The notes beneath the pieces are model-generated. The model saw only the letters and a list, made by a program, of their open reading frames with translations. It made no database searches and was not told the origin of the DNA. Below, piece by piece: positions 13,092-35,601 of a DNA stretch of 38,089 nucleotides. A program made the translations under genes and the position numbers. This DNA comes from Bacteroidia bacterium (lineage in GTDB: Bacteria > Bacteroidota > Bacteroidia > SpSt-205), in the NCBI GenBank assembly GCA_026413325.1, contig JANZYW010000014.1:1-38089 (forward strand), in the 5' to 3' direction. The stretch's first letter is position 1. Every line of letters starts with the position of its first letter.

Positions 13092-14269
13092 CAGTTTAGC
13101 CTTTCAAAAATTCCAGCGATGCCCTGCCCACCGCCTACACATGCTGTTACCAGCCCATACTTTTCTCCTCGCCTACGAAGCTCGTTGATAATCTGGACTG
13201 TGAGCTTGGCTCCCGTACAGCCCAGAGGATGACCCAGAGCGATTGCCCCTCCGTTGACATTTAATTTTTCCATGGGGAGGCCTGCTTCCTTCACCACTGC
13301 CAAAGATTGTGCCGCGAAAGCCTCATTTAGCTCTATCAAGTGGATGTCAGCCAAGGACAGACCTGCTCGACGGAGGGCTTTTGGGATAGCCTCGACAGGT
13401 CCGATACCCATAATGTGAGGCTCCACCCCAGCGACTGCATAGCCCCGCAAGACAGCGATAGGCGTCAGAGCATGTCTCTTGAGAAAAGCTTCACTCACCA
13501 CGAGCACAAACGCCGCCCCATCGGAAGTCTGAGAAGAGTTACCCGCTGTAACCTGCCCATTGGCTGCAAATACTGGCTTGAGCTTCGCTAAAGCTTCCAT
13601 ATTCGTATCCGCTCTGGGTCCTTCATCCGTATCATGTATGTACTCTCGGACCTGCTTTTTGCCTCCGACTACAGATACATCTACCACTCGAAGGGGGACA
13701 ATCTCTTCTCGAAACTTCCCGGATGCGATGGCTGATAGGGCATGCTGATGGGAGCGCAAAGCAAAGGCGTCGGACTCTTCTCGAGTGATACCATACTTTT
13801 TAGCCACCTCTTCGGCGGTCATTCCCATTCCATAGTACCATTCCGGAGCTTGTACAGCATACTCGTAGTTAGGGACGATCTTGTAGCCTCCCATCGGAAC
13901 GAGAGACATGGTTTCTGCCCCTCCTGCTATAATCGCATCCGCCTGCCCTGTGCGAATCTTAGCTACTGCCATGGCTATAGCCTCGAGCCCAGAAGCGCAA
14001 TAGCGATTAATAGTAGTAGCGGGAACCTCTCTGCCTAACGCTCGCAGCGCTATGTATCGAGCCATATTGAGTCCTTGCTCCGCCTCCGGGATCGCATTTC
14101 CGCAGATAAGATCATCTATCTCTCGAGCAAAATCTATCTGAGGGAAAAGACTCTTGATTTTCTCGATCACTGCAACTGACATATCATCGGGACGCACTGT
14201 ACGCAATCGGCCCCGAGGAGCCTTTCCGATCGCGGTGCGAAAACCAGCCACGAGGTAAGCCTCTTGCAT
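13091..14269 (-). CDS. Thiolase-family acetyl-CoA acyltransferase
   Basis: Start re-assigned to MQEAYLVAGFRTAIGKAPRG; NRYCASGLEAIAMA, LNEAFAAQS, NVNGGAIALGHPLGCTGAK, TACVGGGQG. Confidence 0.93.
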   Translation of the reverse strand: MQEAYLVAGFRTAIGKAPRGRLRTVRPDDMSVAVIEKIKSLFPQIDFAREIDDLICGNAIPEAEQGLNMARYIALRALGREVPATTINRYCASGLEAIAMAVAKIRTGQADAIIAGGAETMSLVPMGGYKIVPNYEYAVQAPEWYYGMGMTAEEVAKKYGITREESDAFALRSHQHALSAIASGKFREEIVPLRVVDVSVVGGKKQVREYIHDTDEGPRADTNMEALAKLKPVFAANGQVTAGNSSQTSDGAAFVLVVSEAFLKRHALTPIAVLRGYAVAGVEPHIMGIGPVEAIPKALRRAGLSLADIHLIELNEAFAAQSLAVVKEAGLPMEKLNVNGGAIALGHPLGCTGAKLTVQIINELRRRGEKYGLVTACVGGGQGIAGIFERLN

Positions 14270-14281: not shown

Positions 14282-14514
14282 CAAGACACAGTGGGTGTCG
14301 AGCATACGTGTATTCACCCCTCCGTCGAAAGGGCGAAATAAAGCCCCCCCTACACCTTCCGCCTTGCAACTATTATAAAGGGAGATAGGTATGACCGATA
14401 TACTCTCCCCAGCTGCGGGCAAGGCTCCCCACTCGACCGCCACTTCTGAGTTCCAGGCCCAGCGAGCTATCCCTGAGCTCCACCTCTGCCCTAATCCATC
14501 AAAAGGTTGTCAGG

Positions 14515-31408: not shown

Positions 31409-31669
31409 CTACTTTTTCTTGACGGGGGGTTTTTTGGCTGGTGCTTTCGCTCCACTCTTCGCTCCACCTTTCCCAGCTGCCCCTTTACTCCCTTCAGCGG
31501 AACGCTGAGCGGAGATTTCTTTTCGAACTTCGTGCGCCCAATTCTTTAGCGCCAGGAGACCCTTCCGAGCTCGGGTACCAGCTGCCTTGTTTCCGTCGTC
31601 GTAAAACTTGCGAAGGTCCACCAGGACCTCTCCAACGAGCTTTTCAAGCTCTTCATACCGCTTAGCCAT
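31409..31669 (-). CDS. Histone H1-like (Hc1-type) DNA-binding protein with Lys/Ala/Pro tail
   Basis: MAKRYEELEKLVGEVLVDLRKFYDDGNKAAGTRARKGLLALKNWAHEVRKEISAQR... tail GAAGKGGAKSGAKAPAKKPPVKKK. Start re-assigned from 31768. Confidence 0.85.
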   Translation of the reverse strand: MAKRYEELEKLVGEVLVDLRKFYDDGNKAAGTRARKGLLALKNWAHEVRKEISAQRSAEGSKGAAGKGGAKSGAKAPAKKPPVKKK

Positions 31670-31894
31670 AGTCTTATAGTTTTGTGGTTTCCTCAAAGGT
31701 AAAGTTTTTTTGAACTCATGAAGAGCCTCTCGCAAGCCTTTTATTCCACGATTTGTCCACAGATACACGCATAGGAAAGGGTAACCCTAAGTAGAAAGTA
31801 TCCTATGCCCAGTTTCGCTTATACAGAATAAGACTCTATCCTATGCCGAGCAGACCCTCTCCACAACGTTTTTTCTCCCCCCAACCAAACCTCC

Positions 31895-31906: not shown

Positions 31907-32848
31907 ATGCAATTCCTACTGTGGGGGCTCCTCGGGATAGCCGCAGCCCAGGGTGGAGGAGTGCAGTTTTTCACAGGAAGCTGGGAGACTCTCCTGCAAG
32001 AAGCACGTAAAAAGAACAAGCCCATATTCGTCGACTTCTATACAGTGTGGTGTGGACCTTGCAAGATGTTAGAAAGGCATACTTTTTCTAATCCAGAAGT
32101 AGGAGCCTATACAGAAAAAAATTACATCGCCTATCGAATCGATGCAGAGCGAGGAGAAGGTCCCCGTTTAGCCAATCGATTCAAGATACGAGCCTATCCC
32201 ACCCTTATCTTCTTAGATCCCGAGGGAAATGAACTGGGCAGGCAGGTCGGCTTCGTAGATGCTCCCACTTTCTTGGCACTCCTGAAAAGATATCAAGAAA
32301 AGTCTGGCGATAAACGGGAAGAAATACAACCCAGCTGGGAGAACTTCCAAAGAGAATATCGGGTTTTCTTCACTGACTTCACACAGAAGGCGTGGGGTAG
32401 CACTTTTGCAGAACGGTTTTCCGCTTGGAGAACTGCTATAGAGCAAAGTGACCTCGAACAAGGATCACAAATAGCCCAAACTCTTCCTGCTCCAGCTCCG
32501 GACGTTCTCGCTGCCTTGGCCCAGTGGCACAAAGGACAAAAGGAGTCTGCCCTTCATACTCTACATCACCGCCTCTACCAAAGTCAGAAACTGTCCCCCC
32601 TCCAGGCCCTCTGGCTGGGGGCTTATGCTATAGTGTACTGGGATTCTCCTCCACCAGAAACAATCCAGTGGGTATCATTCGGCGTGAAGAAAGAACCCTC
32701 TGGAGCAGCCTTTCTAACACAGGCTGCCCTGTATCAACGGTTAGGGCGCGTTTCAGAAGCAAAAGAGGCTCTCAAAGAAGCTCGCCGTGACTTACCTGCT
32801 GATCATCCCGCCTTGCATATCCTAACATCACTCAACGGCCAAAAGTAA
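31907..32848 (+). CDS. Exported thioredoxin-fold protein with C-terminal helical extension
   Basis: Signal peptide; KPIFVDFYTVWCGPCKMLERHTFSNPEV, FKIRAYPTLIFLDPEG; CGPC active site. Confidence 0.88.
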   Translation: MQFLLWGLLGIAAAQGGGVQFFTGSWETLLQEARKKNKPIFVDFYTVWCGPCKMLERHTFSNPEVGAYTEKNYIAYRIDAERGEGPRLANRFKIRAYPTLIFLDPEGNELGRQVGFVDAPTFLALLKRYQEKSGDKREEIQPSWENFQREYRVFFTDFTQKAWGSTFAERFSAWRTAIEQSDLEQGSQIAQTLPAPAPDVLAALAQWHKGQKESALHTLHHRLYQSQKLSPLQALWLGAYAIVYWDSPPPETIQWVSFGVKKEPSGAAFLTQAALYQRLGRVSEAKEALKEARRDLPADHPALHILTSLNGQK

Positions 32849-34483
32849 TCCCCTTTCGAATCCAAAGTCCCCTCCCTTCTACTGGCACAAATCGATCGCA
32901 TACCTGGAGGGCTTTTTCCCTACACCCAAACGGAAAGTACGCAGGATGCGTACAACAAGATGGTATAGATAGCCAAGTAGGTATTCGATGGGCACACGCA
33001 GGGGGAGGTTTTCCCTTCCCCTCACAAGGCAGCCTATCCGAAAAACCTAAGATGTCCAGGAGCGCATCCGCATTCAACGCTTTCTTCCAACCCCAACGGG
33101 TATGTCCAGGAAAATACAACAAATACGGCATTATCCCACAGTAGAGCAGGTCCCCTGTCTTGCGGACTTCTGCATCTGATTTTCCAAAAAAATCGACCCA
33201 GCGATATTGTCGGTAAAAAACGGATAGGTCCCTCCGAATCCCACAGCGACCTTCTGACCTGGAGAAAGGTATCGCTCTACGGGAAAAGGACGCACCCCCA
33301 AAATGGGGTATCTATTCTCTTCTGCCCATCGTCCTTTCCAGATATAGGCACCTACAGGCCCTAAAAGCGCTCGCCATCGCGCTCCCCATTCGAAGGGATA
33401 CAGAGGTACCCCATGTCCTATGAGCAGCACCCCCATCAGTCGGCATATTACCCCTCCTCGGTCTACAATCGATCCAGCCAACACAACCAGCGAGGTGCTG
33501 GACATAAATAAAAATCGGTTGCTACTGAAAGGCATTTCTTCTATATCACCTCCTACGTAAATGTTATAGAGCAGGCTCACACCCAAGATAGGACCCCCAA
33601 AAAGGAAGGCTCTCCTTCGCCACAGTCCCCCTATAGCCAATATCCATAGAGGAAGGTTGTATATGATATGAAAACAGGTACTCAGTATCCCGTTTACCCA
33701 GCGATGGAGGGAGGGGATATCCGTTACTTTCAAGCAATATGTGTTAGGCCACCAATCCCCGTAATAGCTTTTTCTGAAAAGCAGAATTCCCACTCCAAGC
33801 CCAATCCCTCCAAGAACAACCGGGAAAAGGGGTCTACAGGAGCGCGCTGAAAGGGCTTTCCCCGTCGCAGCCCCCAACGCCCAGATAAAAAAATCCATTC
33901 GTAGAAAGGTACCCAACCCCGAAAGGAGGCCCAGCACAAAAGGCCGAGGAACGGTTCGCTCCAGCTCCAATCCTATCCTCACAAGCAAAGTAGCGAGCGC
34001 TCCAGTCTCTAAACCCGCACTGTGCCACACCCAGACCGTGGGAAGGAGTGCCATAGCCCACACCGCCAGTCGTCCGACGGTCACACTGAAAAATCGCACC
34101 CCCAGCAAATAAATACCCCACAAATGCAAGCCCAACGTCAGAAGTCCCGTCAAAAGAATGGGAAAGGCGGCATACTCGGGTGCGATCTCCAGAGCCTGCC
34201 AAAGCGCCATATACAAGGTCCACCCCAGGTTAGTGATCCCCTCTACCCTTTCAGCCCCGCAATACCAGACCAACCCGCATCCCTCTACCAAGCTGCGAGC
34301 ATAGCTCATAGAAATCATCGCATCATCCATGAGGAGAAAACGCCGCAAAGCCCCCCCCTCCCATTCTGCGTGATAGGTAAAAAGAAAGGAAATCCCTATA
34401 AGCTCAGCCAAACCGATCGCTCCTACAGGGCCAAAGAATAACCTAATGGCCTTACGCACTGTTTCCCTCCCTTCTACGGTCAC
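32832..34483 (-). pseudogene. GT-C-like polytopic membrane glycosyltransferase split by a frameshift (ORF 34483..33131 plus tail ORF ending 32832)
   Basis: ORF1 (GTG start, MTVEGRETVRKAIRLFF..., DDAMISMSYARSLVEGCGLVWYCGAERVEGITNLGW) leaves frame at the T7 tract 33192-33186. The -1 frame reads FFGKSDAEVRKTGDLLYCGIMPYLLYFPGHTRWGWKKALNADALLDILGFSDRL with no stop. May be functional if recoded or if this is an assembly error. Confidence 0.7.
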
Positions 34484-35601
34484 CGCCGCCTGGGAGGTAC
34501 TATCAGCCTCCCCGTAACGGGAGCATGGTCAGAAAGAGAAAAGGTCGCCATCCCCCCTTTCGTATCATCCTGATGCACCAGTCCTTCTATCCATGTGGCA
34601 TTAGAGAAAAGATAATCCAGCCGACGATTCCACCAGCCTCCCCCATTTACGGTATGGGAGTAGAAGTCCTGTTCTCGGGCCTGGTATACCTCAAGGGGTA
34701 TGACTTCCCGATATTGATTGTATAGAGGGAGAAGCCAGTTTACCTCTCGCGTGTAGTCATCGGCAACGAATGTGGGATCTACCTCTTTACAAGCGTTGTC
34801 ATCGAAATCTTTGAGCTTCTTGGTCCCTGGAGGTACGGTATTGAGGTCGCCCCCTGCCACCCAGACTGCACCTGCTTGAGTGAGGCTATCCAGCAGGTGC
34901 TTGAAAATCTGTATCTGAAAGTAGCGTGTGCTATCTGGCTCAGGCACATACGCCTCTAAATGCGTGTTGAGAACCCAAAAATTGGGCTCTGTGGGCAAAG
35001 GAATATGAGCAACAAGGATATTCCGCCGCAGGTAAAAGAGTCGATACCACCACGGATAGGCCTCTACCAAAGGCAGAGGAATGCGATAAGCCGTATCGAT
35101 CGGCCAGCGCGAGAAAATCGCATTTCCCGAGTTAATCCGCCCTAAGCCTTTCTTTGGCACATATCGAATGTCCCACTGGCTCGCGTACACCGCATAGGGG
35201 AGCCCACTGCTATCGGCAATATACTTGAGCATATCAACATAAGCAGACCGCTTGGAGTCTCTGTCCAGCTCCTGTATCAAAAGGATGTCAGGCTGCACCT
35301 GCCGGATCTTTCGCAGAAGGGCCTTCAGATTATCCCCTACCTCCTCACTCGTCATCCAAACCCGATCGCCATAGCAATCAAAAAAGAAGTCGATCCTCCC
35401 CCCTCCAAACTTGATATTCCAAGTCATCACCGTAAGCGTCTCTTTGGGAGCAGGAGAGGAAACTAAGGGGGAAACATATCTAACAGCCGGGACGGCCCTC
35501 GTATAATGAACGACCCACCAGTCCGTCCCTTGCAGAATTCCAAGTAGGATAAGAAAAACTCCAAGTAGCCCGATCCCGAACCATATCAGCGTCCGCCGCA
35601 T
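34480..35601 (-). CDS. Endonuclease/exonuclease/phosphatase (EEP) family protein, membrane anchored
   Basis: N-terminal TM; TVMTWNIKFGGG, DILLIQELDRDSKR, WVLNTHLEAY, VAGGDLNTVPPGT, RRLDYLFSN, LSDHAPVTGRL. Confidence 0.9.
   Translation of the reverse strand: MRRTLIWFGIGLLGVFLILLGILQGTDWWVVHYTRAVPAVRYVSPLVSSPAPKETLTVMTWNIKFGGGRIDFFFDCYGDRVWMTSEEVGDNLKALLRKIRQVQPDILLIQELDRDSKRSAYVDMLKYIADSSGLPYAVYASQWDIRYVPKKGLGRINSGNAIFSRWPIDTAYRIPLPLVEAYPWWYRLFYLRRNILVAHIPLPTEPNFWVLNTHLEAYVPEPDSTRYFQIQIFKHLLDSLTQAGAVWVAGGDLNTVPPGTKKLKDFDDNACKEVDPTFVADDYTREVNWLLPLYNQYREVIPLEVYQAREQDFYSHTVNGGGWWNRRLDYLFSNATWIEGLVHQDDTKGGMATFSLSDHAPVTGRLIVPPRRR

Follow-up and report, generated by a model that had tools for sequence, protein, structure and literature searches.

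A glycosyltransferase gene of the GT-C kind split by a net one-base shift in a Bacteroidia genome assembly

The split gene and its neighbours

The window analysed here is the whole stretch of 38,089 nucleotides from contig JANZYW010000014.1 of a Bacteroidia bacterium (GenBank assembly GCA_026413325.1), corresponding to contig C41 of a genome (designated G000) of 2.19 Mb in 135 contigs with 99% completeness. An open reading frame on its minus strand (ORF1) encodes, in its N-terminal part, a GT-C core with multiple membrane spans and a DD motif (LLMDDAMISM); homology of ORF1 to its relatives reaches approximately residue 423, and the final 27 residues are out of frame. In the -1 frame there is no stop between a point well upstream of the junction and the stop ending at 32832; the part of this frame homologous to the C-terminal ends of intact relatives is referred to as the tail. 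Two T tracts (designated T6 and T7) were found inside the overlap of both open frames. Judged by sequence comparison, ORF1 and the open frame downstream of it belong to a single gene that a net one-base shift has split. The coordinates of all features are given in Table 1. Beside pyrD, the minus strand of the window (31409-31768) encodes a small protein rich in Lys and Ala that resembles histone H1 and is conserved in the genus.

Table 1. Features of the split gene and the genes on either side (window coordinates)
Feature	Position	Strand	Details
Endonuclease/exonuclease/phosphatase-family gene	34480..35601	minus	PF03372, E 3.1e-15; upstream, overlaps the GT-C start
ORF1, GT-C core	33131..34483	minus	GTG start, 450 aa, ends ...FFTDNIAGSIFLENQMQKSARQGTCSTVG*
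T6 tract	33215..33220	minus	CCG TTTTTT ACC; homology switches frame here (join scan)
C-terminal tail, same gene, -1 frame	32832..33214	minus	YRQYRWVDFFGKSDAEV...FGR, 127 codons + stop
T7 tract, T_TTT_TTG heptamer	33186..33192	minus	ORF1 frame ATT TTT TTG GAA; true frame GAT TTT TTT GGA (D-F-F-G)
TAATG	33129..33133	minus	ORF1 stop overlaps the ATG of ORF 32832..33131
Thioredoxin-like gene	31907..32848	plus	convergent; overlaps the very end of the tail

Intact homologues and the position of the frame change

The closest orthologue, in genome G007 (contig C116, approximately 24.8-26.4 kb; L003/L020), is a single open frame of 593 residues with 51% identity to ORF1. The order of the endonuclease and thioredoxin-like neighbours is kept in this orthologous locus, where the genes are arranged as in the window (pyrD, histone-like, thioredoxin, GT-C, endonuclease). 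When the tail was used alone as the query, the G007 orthologue was matched far above chance (E 9.8e-27). In the same genus, homologues have one uninterrupted frame of 530-593 residues wherever the C-terminal region is present (one, L008, ends at a contig edge, so that this region is not readable there), and the genome of the window itself carries a second, 41% identical homologue on contig C96 with an intact frame of 503 residues. The tail is also part of one ORF in relatives on WOR-3 and Sumerlaeota contigs, which belong to two other phyla, and three of its residues (D and G in DxxG, G in a PGH stretch) are invariant among 11 aligned homologues. A scan of genome contigs for copies from the same species found no more than one copy in the genus and four loci in three MAGs of other phyla. 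The WOR-3 and Sumerlaeota relatives (L016, L017, L018 and L019) are approximately 31-41% identical and reach no Pfam cut-off; horizontal spread is possibly behind the presence of the GT-C family in these MAGs.

The first-pass annotation had proposed one GT-C-like gene split by a net one-base shift, with a restored tail resembling a conserved C-terminus, and had named homologues lacking the tail as the finding that would speak against it. The homologues turned out to be single intact ORFs, and the tail, present in full-length homologues including those from other phyla, is the conserved C-terminus of the family. The frame is disrupted in the window gene only and is intact in its orthologues, as in a pseudogene or an indel singleton.

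The site of the frame change was mapped by a join-point scan, in which the join was moved codon by codon and each joined protein was aligned to nine homologues. The highest summed score, 6828, was obtained for a join at T6, while a join at the T7 heptamer (6490) was rejected as clearly worse: it leaves approximately nine residues out of frame (TDNIAGSI... for YRQYRWVD) and puts Ile where 11 of 11 aligned homologues have Asp. The orthologue sequence is GTHPYFNRDYRWIDFFGKND, for which the window has GTYPFF and then YRQYRWVDFFGKSD in the other frame. Because homology switches frame already at T6, the D-F-F-G codons at T7 are read correctly only after the frame change. The intact G007 orthologue has the same D-F-F-G codons in frame (GAC TTT TTT GGA), but differs from the window in its continuous frame and in having TAC TTC where the window has T6; a T tract at this site was absent from all eight homologues whose DNA was inspected. 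On the basis of these alignments, the one-base lesion probably lies in the T6 tract or beside it. The in-frame T_TTT_TTG of the first-pass annotation and the stop-free -1 frame beside it were thus both found in the sequence, but the break that it had placed at T7 was not upheld, as homology switches approximately 30 nucleotides upstream. A frequent heptamer close to a frame break can mislead in this way, as homology puts the break at another tract.

Origin of the frame change

It is very probable that a private single-base lesion explains the split, whether it arose as an error of assembly or sequencing or as a recent loss-of-function mutation. In this reading, the gene of a GT-C glycosyltransferase with a distant relation to AftB is interrupted at T6 or beside it by a net change of one base. 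Identity to the closest orthologue is 53% for the tail and 50% for the body, and the proportions of differences at the three codon positions follow the same pattern (0.41/0.28/0.61 for the tail and 0.41/0.31/0.69 for the body); as the tail matches the body in conservation and shows no decay, the lesion would be recent or not real. Error at a homopolymer and recent mutation are about evenly balanced; six T's make a short tract for an assembly error from short reads, and this slightly favours a real mutation.

The background of such lesions was surveyed by comparing approximately 1.06 Mb of G000 with approximately 1.22 Mb of a second genome, G006 (543 genes, 630 kb aligned). The survey covered the ORFs of these stretches of G000 other than those of small contigs such as C18, C21, C23-C32 and C34-C39 (L100, L103, L105-L114, L116-L121), whose ORFs were no valid BLAST queries, probably because these contigs are runs of N (masked or withheld), and its count is a lower bound, as short tails would escape detection. 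There were five candidate frame changes in G000, of which two look like genuine one-base lesions; of the other three, one is a stretch of N's, one an artefact at the N-terminus and one probably a fusion in the reference. One of the two (L147, contig C60, approximately 13140-13155, minus strand) is a private frame change at a C5 tract in a gene that is intact in G006, and the other (L122, contig C40, approximately 14326-14354, minus strand) is a private one-base frame change in a methyltransferase-type-looking gene, also intact in G006. With a background rate as low as approximately two comparable lesions per 630 kb aligned, one lesion in the 38 kb window is unremarkable, and because the G000 assembly is not generally error-ridden, error cannot be assumed. 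The single contig of G006 (C1; for example L055, L036, L068, L078 and L066) itself showed 16 candidate frame changes of the same sign in approximately 604 kb aligned, a pattern suggestive of a systematic indel bias in that assembly.

Recoding and phase variation, also put forward in the first-pass annotation, are not supported, because neither the split frame nor the tract was found in any homologue. Programmed -1 ribosomal frameshifting at T_TTT_TTG, yielding two isoforms as in dnaX, is extremely unlikely. The window gene has in common with dnaX-type frameshifting an in-frame X_XXY_YYZ heptamer within the overlap of two open frames, and a modest hairpin is predicted downstream of it (best z -1.83). 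Unlike the dnaX type, however, the heptamer lies off the homology switch, and a join there would destroy the invariant Asp; RNA folding 3' of the heptamer is within the range of shuffled sequences (z -0.99 to -1.83) and provides no significant stimulatory structure; and the homologues are unsplit, the orthologue with the same D-F-F-G codons being in frame throughout. T_TTT_TTG is moreover common in G000, and with 71 in-frame copies in 850 ORFs (which hold 142 tracts of T7 or longer) the presence of the heptamer alone means nothing. Published comparative criteria for programmed frameshifting look for a cluster of at least five genes with a conserved frame transition and motif (PMC3711429). The window gene falls outside this pattern: all homologues readable through the site are single ORFs, and no slippery heptamer is conserved at the transition, where homology switches at T6 and the tract is not conserved.

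Slippage at T6 itself, transcriptional or as -1 ribosomal slippage on G_TTT_TTT, would restore a share of full-length protein; the position of the tract coincides exactly with the homology switch, and the intact tail would fit a gene that is still functional. Sites of programmed transcriptional slippage typically have at least 8 identical bases or paired shorter tracts (PMC3711429). The in-frame heptamer departs from the canonical X_XXY_YYZ pattern, homologues lack the tract, and a recent lesion or error accounts for the intact tail equally well, so slippage at T6 is considered very improbable. Lineage-specific slippage at the T6/T7 pair, which would produce some full-length enzyme alongside a truncated isoform, is very improbable as well.

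Phase switches usually consist of net one-base changes at homopolymers, for example in envelope glycosyltransferase genes, and the window gene, with a change of this kind in a gene of this type, has their usual form; on-off switching of the enzyme within the population by a phase-variable homopolymer is nevertheless highly unlikely, as T6 is short for a slipped-strand mechanism and is conserved in no homologue inspected. That the two frames are separate, translationally coupled genes, the second starting where its ATG overlaps the ORF1 stop in TAATG, can be given almost no credence: both parts are fused in all full-length homologues, and homology in the tail frame continues upstream of the ATG (FFGKSDAEVRKTGDLLYCGI). 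The Met in question is internal in the orthologue (YCGAMPYM), and the apparent start was rejected as coincidental.

The enzyme and its relation to known GT-C systems

With the private lesion as the preferred reading, the window gene is an ordinary split gene. Its normal product would have approximately 550 aa, comprising a polytopic core and a C-terminal extracytoplasmic domain as a cap; the core would bind a polyprenyl-phosphate sugar donor and act through the aspartate of the DD motif. As assembled, translation would stop approximately 27 residues past the shift, with loss of the conserved cap, and the product would probably be inactive. The intact homologue on C96 could make loss of the window copy tolerable. 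For annotation, the consequence is that automatic procedures would list a truncated enzyme and a hypothetical protein in place of the single intact glycosyltransferase of the genus.

The window protein had no match above cut-off in Pfam or NCBIfam. Its polytopic membrane core, together with an acidic motif in the first extracytoplasmic loop, is the combination by which GT-C (GT-CA) enzymes are recognised, and the DD motif is invariant or nearly so in homologues of three phyla. The homologues share with the PMT_2/ArnT/PglB/ALG12 superfamily weak PMT_2 matches (best E 4.7e-5), all of them below the Pfam gathering score. For a low-confidence AlphaFold model of homologue L015 (mean pLDDT 50), Foldseek placed the GT-C enzymes ALG12, PglB and ArnT first, with E > 0.001 for all matches. 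The fold comparison is weakly consistent with a GT-C assignment.

A closer point of comparison is AftB, a terminal beta-(1->2)-arabinofuranosyltransferase in which the DD motif holds the catalytic aspartate (PMC12041299). ORF1 was rejected as an AftB equivalog (16.7 bits versus a cut-off of 1050; NCBIfam NF041481), and the two families differ in that the sequence match is limited to the core and there is no evidence of arabinan substrates for the window family. A profile built from 11 homologues, with the window excluded, matched AftB (PDB structures 9dlf/9dlh) over the N-terminal core (E 3.6e-9), a match which establishes homology to GT-C enzymes at the level of sequence and points to a distant relation to AftB. 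The N-terminal core, the DD motif and a C-terminal domain following the membrane core are shared between AftB and the homologue profile, and the position of the tail matches that of the C-terminal extracytoplasmic domain in GT-C enzymes such as AftB. LLMDDAMISM in the window fits the DD motif of AftB, and loss of the tail would remove the corresponding cap.
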